A model generated the notes under the pieces. That model had not been told where the DNA came from. It ran no database searches and saw only the letters and a program-made list of their open reading frames with translations. Source: Clostridia bacterium (lineage in GTDB: Bacteria > Bacillota > Clostridia > DUPQ01). From it: a stretch of DNA of 43,194 nucleotides. Where the stretch lies: the NCBI GenBank assembly GCA_016938455.1, contig JAFGUQ010000256.1:1-43194 (forward strand), written 5' to 3'. The translations under genes were made by a program, and so were the position numbers. This document shows positions 29,025-43,194 of the stretch, in pieces (the stretch's first letter is position 1; each line of letters begins with the position of its first letter).

Positions 29025-30416
29025 ATGAAAAAACTTGATAACAGCAAAATCAGAAATATTCATTTCATCGGCATAAACGGGTCAAGCATGTCAGGACTTG
29101 CCGAAATCATGCTTGGACTCGGGTACCATGTTTCAGGGTCAGATATCGAGCAGACAAAAAAGGTAGATTACCTGAGAAGTCTTGGTGCTGTCATTCATGT
29201 TCCGCAAGATGAAAAAAAAGTCGGTCATCCCGATCTCATTGTTTATACTGCAGCCATCAATAAAGAGAACTGTGAATATCAGTATGGTATCAGCAACAAC
29301 ATTGAAATGATGAACCGGAAAGATCTTCTGGCAAAGTTGATGGAACAATATCAGTATGGCATTGGTGTATCAGGAACACATGGAAAAACAACTACTACCA
29401 CTTTTGTCGCTTATCTGCTGGAAAAATGTAATTTTGACCCTACTGTTCATATCGGAGGAGAAGCAAGGTTCCTCAACAGTAATGTCAAGGTGGGAAATTC
29501 ACCGTATTTTGTAACTGAGGCAGACGAGTTTACTGATTCCTTTTTATCTCTTCACCCCTTTATAGGGATTATCCTTAACATCGAACATGACCATGTAGAT
29601 TATTTCCCCACTTTTGATGATATGAAAAAATCCTTTTTGAAATATGCCAAGTTAATTCCTGACAATGGTTATTTAATCATCTGTGATGATGACGAAAATA
29701 CTCACTTCATTTATGATCAGGTAAATTGCCATGTCATTAAATATGGATTGAATAATAAGGAACTTGATTACAGTGCACTCGATATCACCTATAACGGACT
29801 TGGTTTTCCGTCATTTAATCTTTTTATCAACAGGAAATTCAGGGGTAGAGTCACACTTGGTATGCCAGGAAGGCATAATGTTCTTAATGTGCTTTCTGCC
29901 ATTGCTGCAGTCCATGTGCTTGGAGGCAATATCATCGATATCATAGAAGCCATTAAATCCATTGAAGGGGCTAAAAGGCGACTTGATGTCAGAGCGGATA
30001 TAAGAGGGATAAAAGTCATTGCTGACTATGCACACCATCCCACTGAAATTGATGTGACCCTTGAAACGGTCAGCCATATGGATCATCATGAAATATATGC
30101 TGTTTTTGAGCCTCATACTCATTCAAGAGTAAGAAGCCTGTATAAAGAATTCACCGGATGTTTCAGATATGCCGATCATGTCATCATGGCAAAAGTTTAC
30201 GATGACCGTGAAAAAGAAGATTTAATTAATAATTCAGAAAATCTGGCTAAGGATATTGCAAAAACAGGGAAAGATACTGTCTATCTTGACAGCTATGATA
30301 AAATACGGGACCATCTGATCAGGCACATGAAATCAGGTGATATCATCATGATTCTCGGATCTAAATATGTTGAGGGAGTAGCAGATCAGCTTGCAGAGTA
30401 TTTAAACAGCCTCTAA
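29025..30416 (+). CDS. murC: UDP-N-acetylmuramate--L-alanine ligase
   Basis: This 463-residue enzyme adds L-alanine to UDP-MurNAc in peptidoglycan synthesis. The N-terminal UDP-binding domain opens with HFIGINGSSMSGLAEI, a variant of the usual GIGGIGMSGLA. The ATP loop is GVSGTHGKTTTT at residues 114-124. The central Mur ligase motifs (NIEHDHVDYF) and the C-terminal domain (IADYAHHPTEI, FEPHTHSR) are present. TTTGAGG lies before the ATG. It stands alone on the plus strand between two minus-strand operons. Confidence 0.95.
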   Translation: MKKLDNSKIRNIHFIGINGSSMSGLAEIMLGLGYHVSGSDIEQTKKVDYLRSLGAVIHVPQDEKKVGHPDLIVYTAAINKENCEYQYGISNNIEMMNRKDLLAKLMEQYQYGIGVSGTHGKTTTTTFVAYLLEKCNFDPTVHIGGEARFLNSNVKVGNSPYFVTEADEFTDSFLSLHPFIGIILNIEHDHVDYFPTFDDMKKSFLKYAKLIPDNGYLIICDDDENTHFIYDQVNCHVIKYGLNNKELDYSALDITYNGLGFPSFNLFINRKFRGRVTLGMPGRHNVLNVLSAIAAVHVLGGNIIDIIEAIKSIEGAKRRLDVRADIRGIKVIADYAHHPTEIDVTLETVSHMDHHEIYAVFEPHTHSRVRSLYKEFTGCFRYADHVIMAKVYDDREKEDLINNSENLAKDIAKTGKDTVYLDSYDKIRDHLIRHMKSGDIIMILGSKYVEGVADQLAEYLNSL

Positions 30417-30431
30417 TCTTTTAAAGTTCTG

Positions 30432-31157
30432 TTATTTAAACGCCTGGTTTGACTCTCTTCTTATTTCAATATTCTCAATCACACCGTTATTTCTTCTTGT
30501 CAGCAGAAAAACTATCAAATCTGCAATCTCGTCAGCTTCAATCAGTAATGAAGCATCAAGATCCGGCCGCGTTTTCATCACCATTTCAGTTTTTACACCG
30601 CCTGGAGCAATCAGATGCACTCTGATTCCATCTTGCTGAACTTCTTTGGCAAACGCTTTTGTAAAACCTTCCAGTGCATGTTTGGATGCTGAATACAGGC
30701 TCTGGTTTTCATACCCCTTCTTACCAACTACTGAAGATAAGTTGATAATTGTAGGCACTTCTGATTTTTTTAATAGCGGTACTGCGTTTTTACATATGAC
30801 AAATGGTACTTTCGCATTCAAAGCCATGATGTTATCCCAGTCAGTCATGGTTGATTCAAGGAATGGTTTTGCAAAAGCGATTCCTGCATTATTGATGATG
30901 TAATCAAGTCCATCCATCAATTCAAAGGCTCTTTCAGGTAATGAAGATGAAAAATCCATATCAAGTAAATCCCCGCAGAGATAATATATATTATTTTCAC
31001 CTATTTCTTTTTTCAGTTCATAAAAGCTTTCCTGTTTAGTAGCAACCAGGCAAAGAGTCACTCCTTCTTGATGAAGATAACGGGCAATTTCCCTCCCGAT
31101 TCCTCTGCTGGCTCCTGTAATCAGGCATTTTCTGTTTTTCAAATTCACTTGCTTCAT
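30432..31157 (-). CDS. Short-chain dehydrogenase/reductase
   Basis: This 241-residue Rossmann-fold oxidoreductase has the cofactor loop TGASRGIG at about residues 15-22, the structural NNAG, and the catalytic YSASK. The position after the first strand carries a neutral residue, so cofactor preference (NADH or NADPH) is uncertain. It begins two bases after the stop of the DUF1667 gene, so it belongs to the glycerol-3-phosphate operon. It might act on a product such as dihydroxyacetone or on an unrelated ketone; the sequence does not tell. Confidence 0.85.
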   Translation of the reverse strand: MKQVNLKNRKCLITGASRGIGREIARYLHQEGVTLCLVATKQESFYELKKEIGENNIYYLCGDLLDMDFSSSLPERAFELMDGLDYIINNAGIAFAKPFLESTMTDWDNIMALNAKVPFVICKNAVPLLKKSEVPTIINLSSVVGKKGYENQSLYSASKHALEGFTKAFAKEVQQDGIRVHLIAPGGVKTEMVMKTRPDLDASLLIEADEIADLIVFLLTRRNNGVIENIEIRRESNQAFK

Positions 31158-31158
31158 G

Positions 31159-31527
31159 TTATCTTCTCACATCAGTCTGTGAAGTCGCTACAAGATCTGT
31201 CCCTTCTCCATCTATATTCTCATAAAGGACATCACCGATTTTGACAGGTGCATTCACATCAATCGTATATATTTTCTTCATGATATCAAAAATATGCTGT
31301 TTTCTGACTGGTCTCACTGTTTTCACCGGAAGTACCGCCAATTCTCCGTTTTCTACTTTCACCGTACTGGTGACCACTCTTTTAGGAGAAAGGATTTCCT
31401 CTTTTGCATACGCTTCTCCACGTTTACAGAAGTTATTCTCTACTTTCTGTACACTTTTTTCATCATAAGTAACTTCCATTTCACATCCTCTCGGACATAC
31501 AATACAGGTTATTTTCTTATTCATCAT
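31159..31527 (-). CDS. DUF1667 cysteine-motif protein
   Basis: This 122-residue protein has an N-terminal cysteine cluster (CIVCPRGCEM and a fourth cysteine in NFCKRGE) that could bind a metal or an iron-sulphur centre. The conserved core is RVVTSTVKVENGELAVLPVKT. Such proteins are encoded together with GlpA-like and NAD-linked FAD oxidoreductases and are thought to be part of that complex. It overlaps the upstream gene by four bases. Confidence 0.85.
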   Translation of the reverse strand: MMNKKITCIVCPRGCEMEVTYDEKSVQKVENNFCKRGEAYAKEEILSPKRVVTSTVKVENGELAVLPVKTVRPVRKQHIFDIMKKIYTIDVNAPVKIGDVLYENIDGEGTDLVATSQTDVRR

Positions 31528-32771
31528 GCATCCACTCCTATATACACAGTATCATCTTTAATATCGTTTGTGTTAACTTCAATAAATTCCATTTCGGCCG
31601 GCAGTAATCGCAAATGTCTTCTCTTGGAAATCCACACATCATCGCATGATGCGAAAGTGCTCACTTCTTTAAAAACTTTTCGGCTTCTGAAATACACCCT
31701 GACAACTTCCTCTTCTTCAGTGATGTCAATATATTGTGGCATGACATATCTGATTCCCGCTGCAGCGACAACAGTAACTCTTCTTATTGTTTTCAGTGCA
31801 TTGTTTTTAATATGTTCAACAGCATGTTCTGCAGCCTTGATGCCTTCAAGGGTCACATAATCCACCAGGTCATGAACATGAAGGACATTCCCGCAGGAAA
31901 ACACTCCTTCCACTGATGTTTCAAGGTTCTGATTAACAAATGCCCCGTTAGTGACACTGTCTATTTTCGCACCCATGGCAAAGGTCAGTTCATTCTCGGG
32001 AATAAGACCTACTGACAGCAGGAGAGTGTCACATGCAATATATTCCTTTGTATTTTCAATGATGTTAAAATGCTCATCAACCATGGCAATGGTGACCCCT
32101 TCCACTCTTTTCTTGCCATGGATACTGAACACTGTATGTGATAATTTAAGTGGAATATCATAATCGTTAAGGCACTGTTCAATGTTTCTGACTAATCCAC
32201 CTGGGTGAGGCATGATTTCGCAGACCGCTTTCACTTTGACACCTTCAAGAGTCAATCTTCTTGCCATGATCAGTCCGATATCTCCCGATCCCAGTATGAC
32301 ACAGCTTGTTCCCGGCAGATACCCGTCAATATTGACAAAACGCTGTGCTGTTCCTGCAGTTAAGACACCACTCGGATTAGATCCCGGAATTCTCAGGTTC
32401 CCCCTTGGCCGTTCTCTGCAGCCCATGGCAAGTATAATCGCCTTTGCCTTGTAAATCACATAGCCGTCTTCCTCGTTTGAAGTATATACCATCTTGTTCC
32501 CATCAACTGACAATACCATGGTATTTAATTTATAGCTGATTTTTAATTCATCAATTTTATCCACGAATTTAGCAGCATATTCCGACCCTGTCAGCTCTTC
32601 ACTGAAGTAATGCAGTCCGAATCCATTGTGAATGCACTGTTTCAGTATGCCACCTAACATGTTCTCTCTTTCAATGATCAGAAGGTCACTGATGCCTCTT
32701 TCCCTTGCAGTTACGGCAGCTGCCATTCCTGCAGGACCTCCTCCGATGATGATAAGTTCATGATAAATCAT
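31524..32771 (-). CDS. FAD-dependent NAD(P)/disulfide-type oxidoreductase of the glycerol-3-phosphate operon
   Basis: This 415-residue flavoprotein has the FAD-binding motif IIGGGPAGMAAA at its N-terminus, LGGILKQCIHNGFGLHYF, a second dinucleotide motif near residue 145 (CVILGSGDIGLIMARRLT) for NAD(P), and GVFSCGNVLHVHDLVD as the C-terminal FAD contact. It is likely the electron-accepting partner of the GlpA/GlpO-type dehydrogenase, passing electrons to NAD(P) or another carrier. It overlaps both neighbours by four bases, so the three genes are tightly coupled. Confidence 0.85.
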   Translation of the reverse strand: MIYHELIIIGGGPAGMAAAVTARERGISDLLIIERENMLGGILKQCIHNGFGLHYFSEELTGSEYAAKFVDKIDELKISYKLNTMVLSVDGNKMVYTSNEEDGYVIYKAKAIILAMGCRERPRGNLRIPGSNPSGVLTAGTAQRFVNIDGYLPGTSCVILGSGDIGLIMARRLTLEGVKVKAVCEIMPHPGGLVRNIEQCLNDYDIPLKLSHTVFSIHGKKRVEGVTIAMVDEHFNIIENTKEYIACDTLLLSVGLIPENELTFAMGAKIDSVTNGAFVNQNLETSVEGVFSCGNVLHVHDLVDYVTLEGIKAAEHAVEHIKNNALKTIRRVTVVAAAGIRYVMPQYIDITEEEEVVRVYFRSRKVFKEVSTFASCDDVWISKRRHLRLLPAEMEFIEVNTNDIKDDTVYIGVDA

Positions 32772-34201
32772 TGTCTTGTCCTCCCTGTCAGTATATAGGA
32801 ACCCTCGTCCCCTTTTTGAATCTTATCCTTATCTACTTTCAATTCTCTTGACAGGATATCCATGACATGCGGAAGGCAGAATCCCCCCTGGCATCTGCCC
32901 ATACCAGCTCTTGTTCTTCTTTTCACTCCATCAATCGTCACTGCACCTGCTTTCTGATGAATGCTGTCAATGATTTCTCCTTCTGTAACACTTTCACAAC
33001 GGCAGATGATTTTTCCATATAGCGGATTTTTCAGAATAGCTTCTTTTTTTTCTTCTTCATTCATTTCCGAGAAATATTTTTTCTTTTCCAGTGTCATTGA
33101 ATAGTTTTCTTTTTCACTTATATCTCCAATGATTGATTTGACAATCAAGGCCACATGATTTCCTATGGCCGGTGCACTGGAAAGCCCGGGCGATTCAATT
33201 CCTGCCACATTTATGAAACCCTTGCAGTATCTGCTTTCTTCAATAATGAAATCTCCTTTATCAGGAGTTGCTCTGACTCCTGTAAAGATGGTCACTGATT
33301 TATGAAGCAGCAATTTGTCTGTTGTCTGAAGCCCTTTCTTATATACATAATCAATACTGCTTCTATGGGTATCTCTTTCATCCTTATCTTTGATTTCCTT
33401 GGCATCAGGGCCAATAAGAAGATTCCCGTCCACAGTGCTGGTAATCAGTACTCCTTTTCCTTCCATGGTAGGTGCCTGGAAAACCACATGATTCACCAGT
33501 GTCCCTTCAGATTTATCAAGAAGTATGTATTCTCCGCTTCTGGGAATGATTTTAAAGCTGTCATCTCCAACCATTCTGGCAATTTCATCTGCATATAATC
33601 CGGCACAGTTAATCACCATCCTGCAAGTCAGTGTTCCTTTATCAGTTATTACACTGAAAACTTCTTTTTCTTTCTTTATGCCCAGAACAGTGTGCTCACG
33701 TAAAAATTCCACGCCGTTTCTGACAGCATTTTCAAGTGCATTGATGTTCAGTTTATACGGTGAAACAATCGCAGCTGTTTTTGCTAAAAGCGCACCTTTG
33801 ATCTCAGGGCTCAAGTTCGGCTCAAGGGTCAGCACCTGCTCCTTGCTGATCAGACTCATATCCCTGATACCCTCTTTTGTACCATGGTCATACATTTCCT
33901 GAATCTTACTGATTTCCTCATCATTGAAAGCAATGACAAGCGATCCTGTTTTTTTATATGGAACATTAAGTTCCTCACATGTCTTTTCCATCATATCGGA
34001 ACCTTCAATATTGAATTTTGCCTTCAGTGTACCGGGAATAGCGTCATAACCGGCATGGATAATGCCTGAGTTGGCACCCGAAGCACCCATGGCAGCATCA
34101 ATATGCCTGTCAGTTACGCAAATTGAAAGCTGATATTTTGATAAGCTCCTGGCTACAAAAGATCCGATGACCCCTGCTCCTATAATGACTATGTCAACCA
34201 T
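32768..34201 (-). CDS. GlpA/GlpO-type FAD-dependent glycerol-3-phosphate dehydrogenase with [2Fe-2S]-type C-terminal domain
   Basis: This 478-residue protein has an FAD motif at the N-terminus (VIIGAGVIGSFVARSL), the D-amino-acid-oxidase-like fold, and a C-terminal BFD-like cysteine domain (IICRCESVTEGEI, then GMGRCQGGFC) that should bind a [2Fe-2S] cluster. It oxidises glycerol 3-phosphate to DHAP by family and context. The ORF track starts 28 codons earlier inside the leader hairpin. The ATG of MVDIVIIGAG has TTGGAGG seven bases upstream and is clearly right. It is the first gene of the operon and its leader holds a terminator, which suggests GlpP control. Confidence 0.85.
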   Translation of the reverse strand: MVDIVIIGAGVIGSFVARSLSKYQLSICVTDRHIDAAMGASGANSGIIHAGYDAIPGTLKAKFNIEGSDMMEKTCEELNVPYKKTGSLVIAFNDEEISKIQEMYDHGTKEGIRDMSLISKEQVLTLEPNLSPEIKGALLAKTAAIVSPYKLNINALENAVRNGVEFLREHTVLGIKKEKEVFSVITDKGTLTCRMVINCAGLYADEIARMVGDDSFKIIPRSGEYILLDKSEGTLVNHVVFQAPTMEGKGVLITSTVDGNLLIGPDAKEIKDKDERDTHRSSIDYVYKKGLQTTDKLLLHKSVTIFTGVRATPDKGDFIIEESRYCKGFINVAGIESPGLSSAPAIGNHVALIVKSIIGDISEKENYSMTLEKKKYFSEMNEEEKKEAILKNPLYGKIICRCESVTEGEIIDSIHQKAGAVTIDGVKRRTRAGMGRCQGGFCLPHVMDILSRELKVDKDKIQKGDEGSYILTGRTRQ

Positions 34202-34216
34202 CTGTTTTCCTCCAAT

Positions 34217-34266
34217 AAAAAAACCGCAATTGCAATAAAAAGAAATTCTTTTTACAATAATTACGG
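34217..34266 (-). terminator. Leader terminator/attenuator of the glp operon, candidate GlpP target
   Basis: A long imperfect hairpin (arms of about 21 bases, CCGTAATT... pairing with ...AATTGCGG, inner AAAAAGAA/TTCTTTTT) is followed on the minus strand by seven T. It stands between the glp promoter and the ribosome binding site GGAGG of the first glp gene. In B. subtilis glpD has this promoter-terminator-RBS layout, and GlpP with glycerol 3-phosphate allows read-through. Confidence 0.75.
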
Positions 34267-34300
34267 CTCCAATTCTCCTCGCCATGATTCGATTGATATC

Positions 34301-34329
34301 AGTATATACCTGTTTCTCTAAAATATCAA
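34301..34329 (-). promoter_or_regulatory. Sigma-A-type promoter of the glp operon
   Basis: On the minus strand TTGATA, a 17-base spacer and TATACT lie immediately after the stop codon of the rubrerythrin-like gene. Transcription should start around 34294, about 28 bases before the leader hairpin. The untranslated leader would be about 90 bases. Confidence 0.8.
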
Positions 34330-34330
34330 A

Positions 34331-34813
34331 TTAATACTCTTTACGAATTCCGAATTCTGCAGACTCAACCCAGTCATTCGGACGGTTGACCAGAATGATG
34401 ATATCCTCAAGTACTCTGAAATGTTCCTGCTCCTGATTGATCAGAAACTTATAAAGAGCTTTTTCTTCTTCACTGACTGCCTTTTCCAGAAATTCGCTGT
34501 ATAAATCAATGCTTTCTTTTTCTTTGGCCAATGCAAGACGATACACATCAAGCTGGTCCATATGAACCTTATACTCGCTATGAAACTGTTTGCTGTCCTT
34601 AAAGATAGATTTACTTTCTTTTAAGGTATGGCTGTCTTTCAGCTCAAATGTCATATTCTCCATTTTGCTCTTGATTATCTCTGCATGTATTTTCTCGTCA
34701 TGTGCAAGAATTGTAAACACCTTTTTGAGTTGACCTTCGTATTTATCTGCCTGTTCAAGATAAAAGGCTTCTCCTTCGTTTTCCATTTTCATCGCATATT
34801 CTAAAGTATTCAT
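34331..34813 (-). CDS. Rubrerythrin-like ferritin-fold protein (no rubredoxin domain)
   Basis: This 160-residue four-helix protein carries the diiron ligands of the rubrerythrin/ferritin family: ENEGEAFY in the first helix, AHDEKIHAEI in the second, AKEKESIDLY in the third and NQEQEHFRVLEDI in the fourth. The rubredoxin domain of classical rubrerythrin is absent. It probably reduces peroxide or handles iron, a common need of anaerobes. The start is the ATG behind GTGGAGGG; the ORF track reads into a GTG that is part of this ribosome binding site. It has its own promoter. Confidence 0.85.
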   Translation of the reverse strand: MNTLEYAMKMENEGEAFYLEQADKYEGQLKKVFTILAHDEKIHAEIIKSKMENMTFELKDSHTLKESKSIFKDSKQFHSEYKVHMDQLDVYRLALAKEKESIDLYSEFLEKAVSEEEKALYKFLINQEQEHFRVLEDIIILVNRPNDWVESAEFGIRKEY

Positions 34814-34846
34814 AAATCCCTCCACTTAAATAGTTTCTCTTATCCT

Positions 34847-34876
34847 ATTATACCTTAATAAACCATTGTTATTCAA
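34847..34876 (-). promoter_or_regulatory. Sigma-A-type promoter of the rubrerythrin-like gene
   Basis: On the minus strand TTGAAT, an 18-base spacer and a perfect TATAAT lie 33 bases before the ATG. The -35 overlaps an inverted repeat described separately. Confidence 0.7.
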
Positions 34877-34883
34877 ACAACGG
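34863..34883. repeat. Inverted repeat over the -35 of the rubrerythrin-like gene
   Basis: CCATTGTT and AACAACGG form eight near-perfect pairs around a 5-base centre. It may be a weak terminator for the sialidase-like gene (TTTATT follows on the minus strand) or a regulator site over the promoter. It does not resemble a PerR box. Confidence 0.4.
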
Positions 34884-34915
34884 ATAAAATCATATAAACA
34901 AATCAGTTATGGTAA

Positions 34916-36640
34916 CTATATCTTGTCATGATTATAATTCCCGATCACCTCTGAAGTCATCAATGCCACTCCATAGATTTTTACAACCCTTGCCGATGCA
35001 CTGACTTCAGCTGTTTGTGCTCCGTTAGCCTCTCTGAAATAGGGGCTGAATCGGCCGAAACCAAATTCCCTGACCTCTCCGCCGTCATTATATCTCCCGT
35101 CAATGATAAATGAAATGATTCTAGGTCCCCCATCAATAACGACTGCGATATGATGTGTTGAATTTACTCTCAGCACCTCATCATCACTCTGCCATGAGCA
35201 TTGCATCAACCCATCATTCAGCACAATGGAAACTCCATGATTCAAGTTGGTTTCGATCAGAATTCCCTTATGATTTTTATCTCTGCTGTCAAAAAGAATC
35301 TGCCTGTTTACTTTCTCTTTGAATTCACACCACATTTCAATGGTCAGTCCATGGCCGAGATTCTTTGAATTGTATGTTGAATTCACTACTTCTCTTTCAG
35401 TGAAATATGGAAGATCAGGCATTATCAGTTTTCCTCCATCACTGCTTTCATATTCCATAAGAAGTCCTCTTTTTGAAACATCAGCATTATCAAACTGATT
35501 AAGCAGATTTATCATGAATTCTTCTTTTATTTCATGACATCGAGCTTCAGTTTTCATTGTCTCCGTGATATAGAAACGATTGCCATCTTCGATAAAATCA
35601 GGATAACTGATAATGGTGTATGGATCTCTGTCATATAATATAAGTTCAGGTTGTGACCATTTTATGGTTTTCCCTTTATCGGTATCAGCTTCAATCCCTG
35701 AAGAAACGAAAACAGGATTTCTGTTTTCATACCACCTTCCGCCATTATTGTGAAACCAGTACAGGAATTTACCGTTTTTCAGTTTCCAGATGAAATTTGC
35801 GGCTCTTGGGTTTTTCATAAGTCGGCCATCAGCATAAGCCTGGTACTGCGGTTTTGAAAAAGTATGTCCGCCATCTCTGCTTATTGAATAAGCAGGATGT
35901 CCATCTACCGTTCGATAGACACAGTAGAGGCTGCCGTCGCTAATACTGACTATGCTTTGTTCTTCAGCGATCAACCCTCCTCCTTCAGGAGTTTTTAATC
36001 CCTCCTCTCCATCAGGGAGTGTTTCAAATATAAGTTTTGAAACCTCTTTTTCTACCCCGATATTCGGAGAATGTATGAACCAACCTTCGGAGACGGTCAG
36101 CATATCCTGTATTTTATGAATGGGAAAATAGCATGAGTCTCTTATTAACAGTGGTTTCCCTACAGTCCAGAAAAGGCGGATTTTCCCCTGATAAGCATTG
36201 TTTCTGTCCACTTTTGTTTCTCTGACCGGCACTTCATAACGGTCAGACCATGTAACACCATGATCATCGCTGAATCTGAATACAAAATAACCTTGCATAT
36301 CAACACGATGGTGCAGGCCTTCCGATGATTCAATGAAGCGGACATCATCTTTGTTGAAATTGTAAAAACAGTATATTCTTCCATATGGTACTTTTAAAAG
36401 AACACCATATGCAGATTCAGGTTCCTGTGCATTTTCTAAGAATAAAAGCGGTGTCCAGGAGTCACCTTTATCAGCGCTTCTTGTAATTCCAATATGTTCT
36501 CCCCTGGCACCTTCGTCACCTTTTACAGTAGTAATCACACATACCCAGTCTCTGTTATCTGCTATGACCACATATGGCTGATCGCTGTACTGCTCTCTTG
36601 GAATTTGCTTTCCCTGACTGATGTTTCGAAAATCATTCAT
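34916..36640 (-). CDS. Intracellular sialidase-fold protein with C-terminal lectin-like domain
   Basis: This 574-residue protein has three Asp-box-type repeats: RSADKGDSW near residues 55-62, FSDDHGVTW near 124-131, and SRDGGHTF near 254-261. They mark a six-bladed sialidase-type propeller. Residues of about 395-570 look like a concanavalin/LamG-type beta sandwich (GLTIEMWCEF, LFDSRDKNHKGILIE). No signal peptide is visible and no clear RIP motif, so sialidase activity itself is unproven; another exo-glycosidase role is possible. The ORF track starts five codons earlier, overlapping glpP; the ATG of MNDFRNIS follows the glpP stop with a GGAAGTGA site. Confidence 0.7.
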   Translation of the reverse strand: MNDFRNISQGKQIPREQYSDQPYVVIADNRDWVCVITTVKGDEGARGEHIGITRSADKGDSWTPLLFLENAQEPESAYGVLLKVPYGRIYCFYNFNKDDVRFIESSEGLHHRVDMQGYFVFRFSDDHGVTWSDRYEVPVRETKVDRNNAYQGKIRLFWTVGKPLLIRDSCYFPIHKIQDMLTVSEGWFIHSPNIGVEKEVSKLIFETLPDGEEGLKTPEGGGLIAEEQSIVSISDGSLYCVYRTVDGHPAYSISRDGGHTFSKPQYQAYADGRLMKNPRAANFIWKLKNGKFLYWFHNNGGRWYENRNPVFVSSGIEADTDKGKTIKWSQPELILYDRDPYTIISYPDFIEDGNRFYITETMKTEARCHEIKEEFMINLLNQFDNADVSKRGLLMEYESSDGGKLIMPDLPYFTEREVVNSTYNSKNLGHGLTIEMWCEFKEKVNRQILFDSRDKNHKGILIETNLNHGVSIVLNDGLMQCSWQSDDEVLRVNSTHHIAVVIDGGPRIISFIIDGRYNDGGEVREFGFGRFSPYFREANGAQTAEVSASARVVKIYGVALMTSEVIGNYNHDKI

Positions 36641-36645
36641 CTGAT

Positions 36646-37206
36646 TCACTTCCATAAAAGAGTATTTCCGGTTGAAATTCCTATGGCTCCGCTATTCATC
36701 ATCAATGTGACATCCTCTTGCTTAGAAATCAGTCCTCCGGCGATGATAGGTGTAGTCATGGTACCTGAGAGGTCTTTCACCACCTGCGGCATGATTCCCG
36801 GCATGATTTCTATCAGATCAGACTGGACATTCAATACCGTCTTGATACAGGTTTCCAGGGATTGAGAATCCACTATGAAAAATCGCTGTATAGCATAAAG
36901 ACTGCAATCTTTTGCATACTTGATCAAATTACTCCTTGTGGTGATGATCCCATCAGGTTTTATTTTTTTAGCGATAAACTCAATCGCTTTTTTGTCTTTA
37001 CCCAGACCTTCGAGAAAATCAATATGCACAAAAGACAGTTTTCCCGCTTCTCTGATATGATGAATATAGGCTGAGATATTGAAAATGTCAGCAGCCAGTA
37101 TGAATATAATCTTCACATCAGACTGAAGTGCCATGCTCAAATGACCGGTGTCTCTGATTGCGGCAATCACAGGATTGATTTTTAATGCTTCTCTTATATT
37201 CATCAT
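36646..37206 (-). CDS. glpP: Glycerol-3-phosphate-responsive antiterminator GlpP
   Basis: This 186-residue TIM-barrel RNA-binding regulator matches GlpP along its length: NPVIAAIRDTGHLSMAL at the start, VHIDFLEGLGKDKKAIEFI, PDGIITTRSNLIKYAK, IQRFFIVDS, DLIEIMPGIMP, and PIIAGGLISKQEDV with GAIGISTGNTLLW at the end. In B. subtilis it binds glycerol 3-phosphate and prevents termination in glp leaders. It overlaps the small membrane gene upstream by four bases. The glp operon with a leader terminator lies 2.4 kb downstream and is its likely target. Confidence 0.92.
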   Translation of the reverse strand: MMNIREALKINPVIAAIRDTGHLSMALQSDVKIIFILAADIFNISAYIHHIREAGKLSFVHIDFLEGLGKDKKAIEFIAKKIKPDGIITTRSNLIKYAKDCSLYAIQRFFIVDSQSLETCIKTVLNVQSDLIEIMPGIMPQVVKDLSGTMTTPIIAGGLISKQEDVTLMMNSGAIGISTGNTLLWK

Positions 37207-37490
37207 AATGTGATCCGTCCCGTGAAAATCCCAAGAAGAAACGGGAAAATGACTAGAATGGCAAACATGGTGATGATATATCTGATTGTCAGTGCTCCTT
37301 TTTTCAAGGAGGTATAAAACAGATAAAGGAATATTCCAGTACAGACAATTGATAAGTAATTATATCCCTGAGAGCTGTTAAAGAAAAGTATGCTTTTTGA
37401 TACGATAATACTGATTAAATTAATGATATAGTAGATGAATCCCACCACGAAGGCAGCTCTTACATAAGTACCTTTTCCAATTTCCTTCAT
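37203..37490 (-). CDS. Small membrane protein, unknown function
   Basis: This 95-residue protein has three likely membrane helices (about residues 10-30, 44-60 and 68-90) and few charged residues. No family is recognised. It lies directly between the TSCPD gene (no gap) and glpP (ATGA overlap), so it is translated as part of this operon. The start is supported by coupling with a GGAGAAATAA site. Confidence 0.6.
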   Translation of the reverse strand: MKEIGKGTYVRAAFVVGFIYYIINLISIIVSKSILFFNSSQGYNYLSIVCTGIFLYLFYTSLKKGALTIRYIITMFAILVIFPFLLGIFTGRITL

Positions 37491-37748
37491 TTATTTCTCC
37501 AAATGTTTTTTTATTGCTTTTGCTAACTGATCAGGGCATGATGTGTCTTTTTTACCGCAAGTCACTCCTTCAAGCGCTTCCATTACTTTTGTCGCTTCCA
37601 TTCCTTCTGCTAAAATTGATATCCCTTTTAAGTTTCCGTCACATCCGTTTTCAAATTTAAGATTTCTCACTTTTCCCTCAATAATGGTAAATGAGATTTC
37701 TTTTGAACATGTTCCCTTAGTTTTATATTTTACTGCTTTGCTGTCCAT
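37491..37748 (-). CDS. TSCPD domain protein
   Basis: This 85-residue protein carries the signature TSCPDQLAKAI near its end and cysteines at GTCSKEI, NGCDGN and VTCGKK. It is the stand-alone form of the domain also found at the C-terminus of some B12-dependent ribonucleotide reductases (TIGR03905-like). It probably binds a metal or acts in thiol chemistry; the role is unknown. It lies 16 bases after purN. Confidence 0.85.
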   Translation of the reverse strand: MDSKAVKYKTKGTCSKEISFTIIEGKVRNLKFENGCDGNLKGISILAEGMEATKVMEALEGVTCGKKDTSCPDQLAKAIKKHLEK

Positions 37749-37764
37749 TTTCTTCCCTACCCTT

Positions 37765-38355
37765 TTATTTTAACATAATTTTACCTGTTGAAATCATTTT
37801 TAGTGTTTCAAGATATATTTTATGCTCTTCTGTTAAAACACGTGCTGCTAATGACTCAGGTGTATCGTCTTTCATCACTTTGACTTTAATCTGATGCAGG
37901 ATATCTCCTTCATCATAATTTTCATTTACAAGATGAACAGTCACTCCGGTGTATTCCTCTTTAGCCTCTATCACGGCTCTATGCACATTCAGACCGTACA
38001 TTCCCTTTCCTCCGAATCCGGGTAAAAGCGCCGGATGAATATTTAATATATGATTTCTGTACTCATCAATGACCTTATCGGGTAGTTTTTTCATATAACC
38101 GGCAAGTACGATGATGTTAATATCATACATGTGCATCAGTTCAAGAATTTTTTCATCTACCTTTTCATGAGTATAAGCACTGATATGAAAATGCGGGATG
38201 TTTTCTCTTGCTGCTCTTATCAATGCAAAACTGTCTGAATTATTACTGATGACCACCTTGATCTGACCATCAAGCTGTCCTTTTTTAATACCATCAATAA
38301 TAGCCTGTAAATTGCTGCCTCCATGAGAAGCAAATGCAGCGATGTTCAGCTTCAT
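37765..38355 (-). CDS. purN: Phosphoribosylglycinamide formyltransferase
   Basis: This 196-residue enzyme transfers a formyl group from 10-formyl-THF to GAR in purine synthesis. The phosphate loop is SHGGSNLQAI. The catalytic triad is visible as Asn105 and His107 in NIHPALLPGF and Asp148 in NYDEGDIL. The segment YTGVTVHLVNE is diagnostic. No other pur genes are nearby; it overlaps the fructokinase gene by four bases, an unusual pairing. Confidence 0.95.
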   Translation of the reverse strand: MKLNIAAFASHGGSNLQAIIDGIKKGQLDGQIKVVISNNSDSFALIRAARENIPHFHISAYTHEKVDEKILELMHMYDINIIVLAGYMKKLPDKVIDEYRNHILNIHPALLPGFGGKGMYGLNVHRAVIEAKEEYTGVTVHLVNENYDEGDILHQIKVKVMKDDTPESLAARVLTEEHKIYLETLKMISTGKIMLK

Positions 38356-39317
38356 AACATTACAGCCTTTTTACCAAATTCGATGACTTCCTGTAAGGAA
38401 GGCATAGCAGGAACACCACCTTTTTTCATGGCAGTCAGTGACCCTGCCAGATTGGCGAATCGGTTAATCTCATCCAGCTCATCCTTTGACAGATGTTCAA
38501 GTCTTTGCTCACGAGTCATGATCTTAGAAAGCACCGCTCCTACAAAGCTGTCTCCGCATCCTGTTGTGTCAACCACTTTGACATCGTATGTCTTCTGGCT
38601 GCCTGTAATATCCTTATATAGATACATCGCTCCCTTTTTACCAAGCGTTGCAAAAATCAAAGACACCCCCAGTTTCTGAATAATTCTGCATCCTTTAAGA
38701 AGATCATTTTCACCTGTCAGAAAAAGAAGTTCCTCTTCTGATATTTTTAAAATATCTGCATAGGTAAGCATGCTTTGAATCACTTCTTTTGCTTCTGATA
38801 AGCTGTTCCATAAAGGTTCTCTTAAATTAGGATCAAATGAAATCAGCTTTCCTTTTTCTTTTGCATATTTTACAGCATTGACGGTAGTGGTTCTTGAAGG
38901 TTCATCAGTCATGGAGACAGATGAAAAATGAAGCAGTTCACAGTCGTCAATCAGATGGTAATCCACTTCGCTGTCTGTGATGGTGATATCCGCTCCCGGT
39001 TTACGGTAAAAAGAAAAACTCCTGTCATTGTTTTCATCTAAATGAACAAAAGCAAGTGTTGTGTTGACATTATCAGAAAAAACCAGCCCTTTCATGTTCA
39101 CTTTTTTATCAGTAAGTGCTTTTTGAAGCGCCATTCCGAATCTGTCTTTCCCTACTTTTCCGATAAAAGCAGTATCAATCCCCAGCATGGAGGTAGCAAC
39201 TGCCACATTAGCAGGTCCGCCTCCTGGATTCTGTTCAAAAAGATTATTCCCCTGATCAGATTTCCCGACTGGTGTAAAATCTATGAGTAATTCACCAATG
39301 GCACATATTTTAATCAT
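38352..39317 (-). CDS. PfkB-family carbohydrate kinase, probably fructokinase
   Basis: This 321-residue ribokinase-fold kinase has the first PfkB signature (GGGPANVAVATSMLG) and the second (DTTGCGDSFVGAVLSKI) with the catalytic aspartate. The N-terminus CAIGELLIDFTP matches bacterial fructokinases best; related 2-keto-3-deoxygluconate kinases cannot be excluded. The site CAGGAG lies before the ATG. It is the first gene of the operon that ends with the sialidase-fold gene. Confidence 0.85.
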   Translation of the reverse strand: MIKICAIGELLIDFTPVGKSDQGNNLFEQNPGGGPANVAVATSMLGIDTAFIGKVGKDRFGMALQKALTDKKVNMKGLVFSDNVNTTLAFVHLDENNDRSFSFYRKPGADITITDSEVDYHLIDDCELLHFSSVSMTDEPSRTTTVNAVKYAKEKGKLISFDPNLREPLWNSLSEAKEVIQSMLTYADILKISEEELLFLTGENDLLKGCRIIQKLGVSLIFATLGKKGAMYLYKDITGSQKTYDVKVVDTTGCGDSFVGAVLSKIMTREQRLEHLSKDELDEINRFANLAGSLTAMKKGGVPAMPSLQEVIEFGKKAVML

Positions 39318-39365
39318 TTCTTTCTCCTGTATTATTTTTCTTCATTATATTATATTTTGACACAT

Positions 39366-39399
39366 AAAAAAAGAACGGTTTTACCCGTTCTCTTTTTTT
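39366..39399. terminator. Rho-independent terminator after the first exported paralogue
   Basis: GAACGG / CCGTTC pairs around a 6-base loop. On the minus strand seven T follow, so it ends the exported-protein gene at 39411; a T-run on the plus side makes it look bidirectional. Confidence 0.8.
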
Positions 39400-39410
39400 A
39401 CTGACGGTTT

Positions 39411-39998
39411 TTAATCATTATCCTGATTTCTGAATCCTCTTCCTGAGTTTCCTCTCATATTCCCTTCAGCCATCAGTCCCTGTGAAACCATATCTGCTCT
39501 TACTGCTGTCATATAATCATGGATTTCATCCATTGCTGCTTCAACAGCATCACACTGCTCATCTGTCAGATCTTCATTTAGAGTACTTTCTACTCTGAAT
39601 CCCTTTCCTCTTTCGAAAACATTAACCTGGTCAGCCTGTTCCTGTGTCAGAATACCATCTGTGACAAGCTTATTGAATACTTCATCTACCTTTACCTGAA
39701 CTGCTGCAGTATAAGTGTTAAGAGCGTCCGAATTCGCAAGCTGTCCAGTGCTTCCCCTACCGCCGAACATACCGCCTCTTTGCATCATAAGTCCATCAGT
39801 AGCTTCTATTGCTTCGAATACTTTATTGAAAGTATCCACTTCTGCCTGTGTCAATTCACCATTACTCACTTTCTCGCTTAATACTGTGGTAAAGGGATTG
39901 ACAAAGTTCCCGTTTTCATCAAAACTGGCCATGGCCACTCCGCCTACTAATAACAGCGATACTACCACTGCTGCAATGACTAATTTCTTGTTTTTCAT
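39411..39998 (-). CDS. Exported helical protein, paralogue 1 (DUF2680-like)
   Basis: This 195-residue protein has a signal peptide (KNKKLVIAAVVVSLLLVGGVAMA, cleavage likely before SFDENG). Two repeated helical motifs follow: SNGELTQAEVDTFNKVFEAI and TDGILTQEQADQVNVF. An LTDEQCDAVEAAM segment with the only cysteine of the mature part comes next, and the end is Gly/Arg-rich. The motif style resembles DUF2680/YckD and, loosely, the LTxxQ motif of Spy/CpxP; no relationship is proven. Its first 60 residues nearly match paralogue 3. Its leader and C-terminal half resemble paralogue 2, so the family arose by duplication. Confidence 0.7.
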   Translation of the reverse strand: MKNKKLVIAAVVVSLLLVGGVAMASFDENGNFVNPFTTVLSEKVSNGELTQAEVDTFNKVFEAIEATDGLMMQRGGMFGGRGSTGQLANSDALNTYTAAVQVKVDEVFNKLVTDGILTQEQADQVNVFERGKGFRVESTLNEDLTDEQCDAVEAAMDEIHDYMTAVRADMVSQGLMAEGNMRGNSGRGFRNQDND

Positions 39999-40185
39999 TT
40001 TTTTGTCTCCTTTTCTTTCGTTATCTTAATCATAGTCTTCACATTTGTATGTCCTATGAAGATTCTGTATTAAAATGTGTTTTTATTTCACTTAATTTCT
40101 CCACAAGTAGGTACTGTCATTTAGTTTCCTTACTAAAACTTAATTAATTCCTTGTTTTATATTTCTTTACATAGTATATGAGGTA

Positions 40186-40232: not shown

Positions 40233-40820
40233 TTAGTTGCGTCTTCCTTTTACTCCGCCACCTTTGTTACTGCCATCTAAAGTCATTCTCGGGTTTGATC
40301 CGATGATTCCAGCTTCTGATAAATCAGATTTAAGCTCACCCATGTACTCATGTACATCAGCCATAGCAGCTTCAACTGCATCACATTGTTCATCTGTCAA
40401 ATCACCTAACGCACCTTCTACATTGAATCCTGCACCTCTTTCAAATGGGTTAAGGCTATCTACCTGTGCTTGAGTCAATATCCCATCATTGACAAGTCCT
40501 TGAAAAACCTCATCAATCTTCACTTGAAGTTTTGCAGTATACTCTGCCATTGCTTCAGAATTCATAAAAAGACCTCTTTTGCTGTTGTTTGTGTTATTGA
40601 ATCTTTGCATAAGTTCATTATTCTCTTCACAAAGTTCCTCATACAGCTGATAAAAAGCATCTGCCTCTGCCTGGGTGATATCTCCACTTTCCACTCTATC
40701 TGCTAAAGTGCTCTGATATAAGTTAGTGTTTCCATTACCATTATAGCCTGCCATGGCAACACCACCTACTAATAACAGTGAAATCGCAATAGCGGCAATG
40801 ATCATTTTCTTGTTTCTCAT
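40233..40820 (-). CDS. Exported helical protein, paralogue 2 (DUF2680-like)
   Basis: A 195-residue paralogue with a signal peptide (NKKMIIAAIAISLLLVGGVAMA, likely cut before GYNGNG). It carries the same two helical motifs (ESGDITQAEADAFYQLYEEL and NDGILTQAQVDSLNPFERG) and the LTDEQCDAVEAAM segment of paralogue 1. It has one further cysteine (ELCEENN). The end is basic (KGGGVKGRRN). The 27 bases before the AAGGAG region are identical to those before paralogue 1, so the promoter region was duplicated with the gene. It is divergent from the polyferredoxin gene. Confidence 0.7.
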   Translation of the reverse strand: MRNKKMIIAAIAISLLLVGGVAMAGYNGNGNTNLYQSTLADRVESGDITQAEADAFYQLYEELCEENNELMQRFNNTNNSKRGLFMNSEAMAEYTAKLQVKIDEVFQGLVNDGILTQAQVDSLNPFERGAGFNVEGALGDLTDEQCDAVEAAMADVHEYMGELKSDLSEAGIIGSNPRMTLDGSNKGGGVKGRRN

Positions 40821-42563: not shown

Positions 42564-43103
42564 CTAGTCGTTTGATTCAAAAGCAGAAAATCCTCTTCCG
42601 CCTCTTTTAGCTCCCATCATGCCTTTTGATGCAAAATCTCTTAACGGAGCACATTGTTCTCTTACTTTAGCTAGTGCGTCTTTCAATGAGGCTATCTGCT
42701 CATCAGACAAATTCGCCCAGGCTTCTTTATCAATTCCTCCTGCACAATATTCGTTTAATAATGCAGCTTGCTCAGAAGTGATTATTCCGTCTTCAACCAT
42801 TTGTGAAATTCTATCAGTCAGTCTTGTTCTCAGAAGTTCCTTGTCCTGAAGCATGGTTCTGTCTCTGTCCATGATACCTTTTCCGCCTGCAATAAACGCT
42901 TCATCCTGATGAATAGCATCAAATACTTTATAGAATGTATCCACTTCTGCCTGTGTAAGTTCTCCGTTTTGTACCTTTTGACTTAATATATTCGTAAAAG
43001 GATTAACAAAGTTTCCATTTTCATCAAAGCTGGCTGCTGCGATTCCGCCAACTAAAAGAATGGCCACTACCATTAAAACAATGATTACTTTCTTATTCTT
43101 CAT
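42564..43103 (-). CDS. Exported helical protein, paralogue 3 (DUF2680-like)
   Basis: This 179-residue protein has a signal peptide (KNKKVIIVLMVVAILLVGGIAAA, cut before SFDENG). Its SFDENGNFVNPFTNILSQKVQNGELTQAEVDTFYKVFDAI is almost identical to paralogue 1. The rest differs: EDGIITSEQAALLNEYCAG, then LSDEQIASLKDALAKVREQC, and a basic GAKRGGRGF tail. Its two cysteines are placed differently from the other paralogues. The ORF track starts nine codons earlier; the ATG of MKNKKV is the proper signal-peptide start, with only a weak ACGGTG site. A 6-bp inverted repeat (GAGTAG/CTACTC, 43116-43135) lies in its leader. Confidence 0.7.
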   Translation of the reverse strand: MKNKKVIIVLMVVAILLVGGIAAASFDENGNFVNPFTNILSQKVQNGELTQAEVDTFYKVFDAIHQDEAFIAGGKGIMDRDRTMLQDKELLRTRLTDRISQMVEDGIITSEQAALLNEYCAGGIDKEAWANLSDEQIASLKDALAKVREQCAPLRDFASKGMMGAKRGGRGFSAFESND

Positions 43104-43194
43104 TAAAACACCGTCGAGTAGACAGCCCACTACTCTTTCCCTTTCTTAATATTTATCACATCAAGCGAGGAGTAGCTGCTGCCCCTCACAGAAC

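Follow-up and report, generated by a model that had tools for sequence, protein, structure and literature searches.

A conserved GAG element in the leader of a Clostridia glpO operon and its predicted role in antitermination by GlpP

GlpP of Bacillus subtilis, together with glycerol 3-phosphate, disrupts the terminators of PglpD, PglpFK and PglpT (PMC9604022), and B. subtilis is the experimentally known GlpP system (PMC7430163; PMC9604022). In a 43,194-nucleotide stretch of DNA from a Clostridia bacterium (hereafter the window), a promoter, a long hairpin and a ribosome binding site precede an operon headed by a glycerol-3-phosphate dehydrogenase gene, and glpP lies nearby. This arrangement raises the question of whether the leader is a GlpP-controlled switch and, if so, which part of the RNA GlpP would recognise.

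The glpO operon and its leader

The first gene of the operon (positions 32768–34201, minus strand, as are all genes of the unit) codes for a glpO-type glycerol-3-phosphate dehydrogenase/oxidase of 477 amino acids with a BFD-type [2Fe-2S] domain (PF01266, PF04324). Its best family is the type 2 glycerol-3-phosphate oxidase NF033460, with a score of 337 bits that falls under the curated cut-off of 460. The GlpD models gave only about 20 bits against cut-offs of 352–360 and Fer2_BFD was present, in agreement with the first-pass annotation of this DNA, which had taken the enzyme to be of the GlpA/GlpO kind and not a GlpD. A gene for a pyridine nucleotide-disulphide oxidoreductase (31524–32771; PF07992) overlaps glpO by 4 bp and is itself overlapped by 4 bp by a DUF1667 gene (31159–31527; PF07892), 1 bp after which follows an SDR oxidoreductase gene (30432–31157; PF00106). 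The same annotation had placed all four genes under one switch, and for the first three this reading is supported. The SDR gene is kept in the sister genus G004 but was not found by synteny at the corresponding place in genus-mate G001, and it is a less certain part of the regulated unit than the other three.

GlpP, the glycerol-3-phosphate responsive antiterminator, is encoded in a single copy in the genome, three genes and 2.4 kb upstream of the leader (36646–37206, minus strand). The protein, already recognised as a clear GlpP, matches PF04309 with an E-value of 5e-64 and is related to the solved Listeria structure 3KTS. Between glpP and a rubrerythrin gene lies a gene for a BNR-repeat (sialidase-like) protein with a laminin-G-like domain (34916–36655, minus strand), which had no match at the same place in genus-mates G002 and G003. 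The window also holds a cluster of three genes for paralogous small proteins (39411–39998, 40233–40820 and 42564–43130, minus strand) with a signal-like N-terminus, MKNKK...LLVGGVAMASFDENGNFVNPFT.

Direct reading of the sequence recovered every part of the leader that had been described, a TTGATA-N17-TATACT promoter, a long hairpin with seven T, GGAGG and an ATG, and placed them on the minus strand, which had been left unstated. The −35 hexamer TTGATA (34324–34329) almost adjoins the end of the rubrerythrin-like gene at 34331 on the same strand, starting 1 nt past its stop codon. Together with the −10 hexamer TATACT (34301–34306), from which it is separated by a 17-base spacer, it makes 10 of 12 sigma-70 matches. 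Transcription would be expected to start near 34294, giving a leader of about 93 nt up to the ATG at 34201. The computed fold contains a terminator hairpin, GAGCCGUAAUU...AAUUGCGGUUU (34221–34269), with an A/U-rich stem whose 11 + 9 pairs are interrupted by a 3 + 3 nt internal loop and capped by a 3-nt end loop, and a centroid energy of −18.8 kcal/mol. With the T7 tract (34217–34223) it forms a computed intrinsic terminator, followed by the GGAGG ribosome binding site (34209–34213) and the glpO ATG (34199–34201).

Taken alone, the promoter match and the hairpin energy are no better than chance. A promoter scan of positions 30000–40000 returned 29 sites against 29.5 expected, the leader promoter being among four with 10/12 matches, and the leader folded with a z-score of only −1.27. 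A program scan for terminators made no call at the leader hairpin because its stem is A/U-rich. When the whole window was scanned for a GAG-N4-6-GAG motif with a hairpin and a T-tract behind it, five candidates were found on the minus strand and one on the plus strand. The other candidates span 80–110 nt and are mostly coding; the glpO leader is the sole compact hairpin with a T7 tract between a promoter and a start codon. What lifts the leader beyond chance is its conservation in relatives.

The GAG element and its covarying arms

Orthologues of glpO came from two sets, 60 related genomes and another 80 GTDB contigs; a search of the contigs with a single protein returned none, and an alignment query gave the 80 loci. 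The hairpin, the U-tract and a GAG-N5-GAG motif were kept in all three genus-mates. Absence of the hairpin from relatives had been named beforehand as the finding that would tell against the switch; instead it is conserved, and across 109 genomes the element is associated with GlpP. Many Clostridia glpO leaders have a hairpin and T-tract with GAG-N4-6-GAG just before or overlapping the 5' arm of the terminator, and GAG...GAG was seen in 65 collected elements, with the consensus GAGAUUUGGAG. In the window the motif reads GAGAAUUGGAG (34267–34277, minus strand). It had escaped the first-pass annotation and is most likely the part that GlpP recognises, as the loop of a proposed antiterminator hairpin.

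The arms of this proposed hairpin, X and X', flank the GAG pair. In the window, the 5' arm X, AUGGC (34281–34285), would pair with X', GCCGU (34263–34267), in a stem of five pairs, one of them G-U, that includes the last G of the second GAG. On its own this pairing is marginal (p = 0.05 by shuffling); it gains its credibility from the strong pairing across the family. X and X' are complementary despite differing in sequence between genomes, as in GCAU/AUGC, GCGU/ACGC, AUAC/GUAU, CGGU/ACCG, GUGC/GCAC, UUUGUG/CACAAA and CUUG/CAAG. Over 47 leaders the pairing energy was −259 kcal/mol, compared with −121±12 when partners were swapped (none of 20000 as good). Over 65 elements the pairing score was 752, compared with 417±30 after swapping of partners and 345±30 after shuffling, and each of the five inner positions showed all four Watson-Crick pair types. 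The terminator also has conserved pairs with two-sided changes across 37 leaders. Since X' is at the same time the base of the 5' arm of the terminator, the X/X' hairpin and the terminator are mutually exclusive.

GlpP might instead bind GAG-N5-GAG as a single strand and occlude the 5' arm of the terminator, X/X' not being the working structure, perhaps with an added control of mRNA stability. Conservation is indeed much higher in the GAG letters than in X/X', almost every leader has the second GAG next to the terminator arm or overlapping it, and X/X' of the window is weak. A dual role of GlpP that includes the stability of B. subtilis glpD mRNA is mentioned where PMC3997798 cites Glatz 1996. 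Against simple occlusion, the arms covary over 65 elements far above the swapped controls, and we consider it unlikely.

Association with GlpP and predicted targets

Among genomes with glpO, automatic calling placed the element directly before that gene in 44 of the 60 that encode GlpP and in 3 of the 49 that do not (Fisher p = 2e-13, with genomes counted as independent). Several of the 16 GlpP-positive genomes lacking such a call have the element at a more upstream place in the operon or ahead of glpP; in a few, no element turned up. Because genomes are not independent, a matched pair of relatives is better evidence than these counts. Genus-mate G002 has the order pfkB-purN-hyp-glpP-leader-glpO, and in sister genus G004 the order is pfkB-purN-hyp-glpO, glpP and leader both missing.

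The same comparisons bear on whether the hairpin is simply the terminator of the rubrerythrin-like gene, without a role in glpO regulation. A terminator would be expected just there, given the stop codon 1 nt before the −35 hexamer. The hairpin, however, lies downstream of the promoter, stands directly before glpO also where glpP is the upstream gene (G002 and locus L005), bears GAG-N5-GAG, and is missing where GlpP is missing, which makes this explanation very improbable. Slightly less probable still is that translation of a leader peptide, or of an N-terminal extension, runs through the hairpin and controls termination. The frame is open across the leader from 34285 to glpO, and the gene caller placed its start at ATG 34285 (505 aa). 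This ATG has no ribosome binding site before it and lies about 9 nt from the expected RNA start, the extension has no counterpart in relatives and no equivalent ATG exists in the genus-mates, and the orthologue alignment begins at the MVDIVIIGAG region.

We extended the search with a covariance model (A2, R1) built from 37 glpO leaders. In the window's own genome the leader was the sole strong match (E 9.6e-4; next 0.51). The weaker R1 matches there (E 0.5 or worse) were rejected for want of a convincing GAG pair and hairpin before a glp gene; one of those that looked better sits inside an ORF. Among 293 genomes of the class, 28 matches were obtained at E ≤ 0.002, 20 of them in genomes new to the analysis. 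Of these 20, 18 precede glpO, glpF or a HAD phosphatase gene of glp context, the last of these either leading into glpO or closely following glpP; at one (L234) a short ORF separates the element from glpO. Of the other two, one precedes an Ldh_2-like gene in a GlpP-positive genome and one a MATE-like gene in a genome without GlpP (G208); the latter was rejected. Of the 20 genomes, 19 encode GlpP; the base rate was 20/60. Also set aside were 24 matches, several on both strands, in the GlpP-negative genome G056; a palindromic hairpin with T-tract occurs there many times over (L144) and looks like a repeat element family, and the copy inspected lacked the GAG pair.

The model search added glpT as a target beyond the training set, and scanning with a pattern located elements upstream of glpP, glpF, glpT and a ugpA-like gene. 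The loose pattern has an appreciable background, matching 74 times in real sequence and 35 times when the sequence was reversed or complemented, and therefore only matches before glp genes were used. The names glpT, glpF, HAD, Ldh_2, ugpA and MATE come from inspection by eye, or from BLAST against a sequence identified in that way, and not from a curated model. The Ldh_2-looking gene, a malate/lactate dehydrogenase-like gene by eye from its N-terminal sequence (L226, G242:C24:35001-35070), is a possible new regulon member. At seven loci the element directly precedes glpP, and GlpP autoregulation is for this reason likely in several Clostridia. A HAD phosphatase gene was seen repeatedly, at five loci, in or beside GlpP-linked glpO or ugp-type clusters; its product may be a glycerol-phosphate phosphatase.

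No element was found directly before glpK in the window's own or related genomes; where one was found, it sits before glpF or glpP. In the window's genome glpK lies in another context, beside a tRNA-like gene (L195, G000:C68:4259-5728), with no element upstream, so that the predicted GlpP regulon of this organism may consist of one operon. GlpP, glpO and the element are all present in five genomes (G017, G027, G029, G037 and G052; 85–98% complete) in which no glycerol kinase match was found at E ≤ 1e-100. Their inducer may stem from phospholipid or from uptake of glycerol 3-phosphate, not from glycerol. An E. coli record (NZ_CP134663.1) encodes a GlpP homologue with 38% identity to the window protein, near which no convincing GAG-type element was found.

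Relation to known systems and the proposed switch

GlpP antitermination is, as a kind of system, already known from B. subtilis, and homology ties the Clostridia element to it. The link runs through Cytobacillus spongiae (L214), whose gene order glpP-glpF-glpK-glpD is of the Bacillus type. Its glpF leader carries GUGAAA-GAGAUUAAGAG-ACUCAC and its glpD leader GGUUA-GAGACCACGAG-AGACC, each with a terminator, and both contain GAG-N5-GAG with X/X'; the likeness to the B. subtilis leaders rests on these two and on the B. subtilis-like gene order. An element also stands before glpF in Acetoanaerobium, and in records of Acetoanaerobium and Paenibacillus it lies downstream of glpP, where it precedes glpF and a HAD/ugp-type cluster. 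The leader shares with the B. subtilis glpD, glpFK and glpTQ systems a terminator between the promoter and the first glp gene, GlpP in the genome and targets in glycerol-3-phosphate metabolism. In contrast to B. subtilis, the target in the window is a glpO/oxidoreductase/DUF1667 operon and not glpD, glpP lies three genes upstream, and glpK is outside the predicted regulon.

Other antiterminators offer partial parallels. At the RAT elements of LicT, SacY and BglG, a small protein-stabilised hairpin likewise overlaps a terminator so that one or the other forms (PMC3369931), but the protein encoded in the window belongs to PF04309 (GlpP) and the loop sequence is another. The target RNAs of the ANTAR proteins EutV, NasR and AmiR also have an antiterminator that excludes the terminator. 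They are two tandem hairpins with hexanucleotide loops carrying A at position 1 and G at position 4 (PMC3369931), whereas the leader has a single hairpin with a variable stem and a larger GAG-N4-6-GAG loop. Although terminator/antiterminator alternatives are common to all such elements (PMC3369931), a riboswitch, T-box, RAT or ANTAR-type element of a described family is the least probable explanation, as neither the window nor 20 related loci gave an Rfam 15 match at the gathering score and presence of the element tracks GlpP.

Altogether, the comparison of relatives shows the terminator, the GAG-N4-6-GAG motif, the mutually exclusive X/X' pairing and the link to GlpP and glp genes, and we hold it very probable that this leader switches the glpO operon through transcription antitermination under GlpP control. 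Binding of GlpP to the GAG loop, glycerol 3-phosphate as the ligand and the direction of control are proposed by analogy with B. subtilis GlpP. RNA polymerase would start near 34294 and, without inducer, the nascent RNA would fold into the terminator hairpin (34269–34221) and transcription would stop at U7. In the presence of glycerol 3-phosphate, GlpP would bind GAG-N5-GAG and hold the X/X' hairpin (34285–34281 with 34267–34263). The terminator could then not form, because X' is also the base of its 5' arm, and glpO, the pyridine nucleotide-disulphide oxidoreductase gene, the DUF1667 gene and probably the SDR gene would be transcribed.

We further think it likely that these leaders represent an uncatalogued RNA family, for which we suggest the name GlpP response element, with a covarying short stem, a constant GAG-N4-6-GAG loop and a 3' arm that is the base of the terminator. 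In Clostridia and Bacilli it would control glpO, glpT, glpF, glpD, ugp-type genes and glpP, and allow GlpP regulons to be read from sequence. According to one regulon paper, the GlpP regulon had been left out of comparative genomics (PMC3750489), and the GAG site or the antiterminator may partly be drawn already in older glpD leader papers (Glatz 1996, 1998; Rutberg group). Now that a covarying recognition element is defined, point mutations can test what GlpP binds, and GlpP regulons become predictable in gut and environmental Clostridia, among them the genomes that carry GlpP, glpO and the element but gave no glycerol kinase match.
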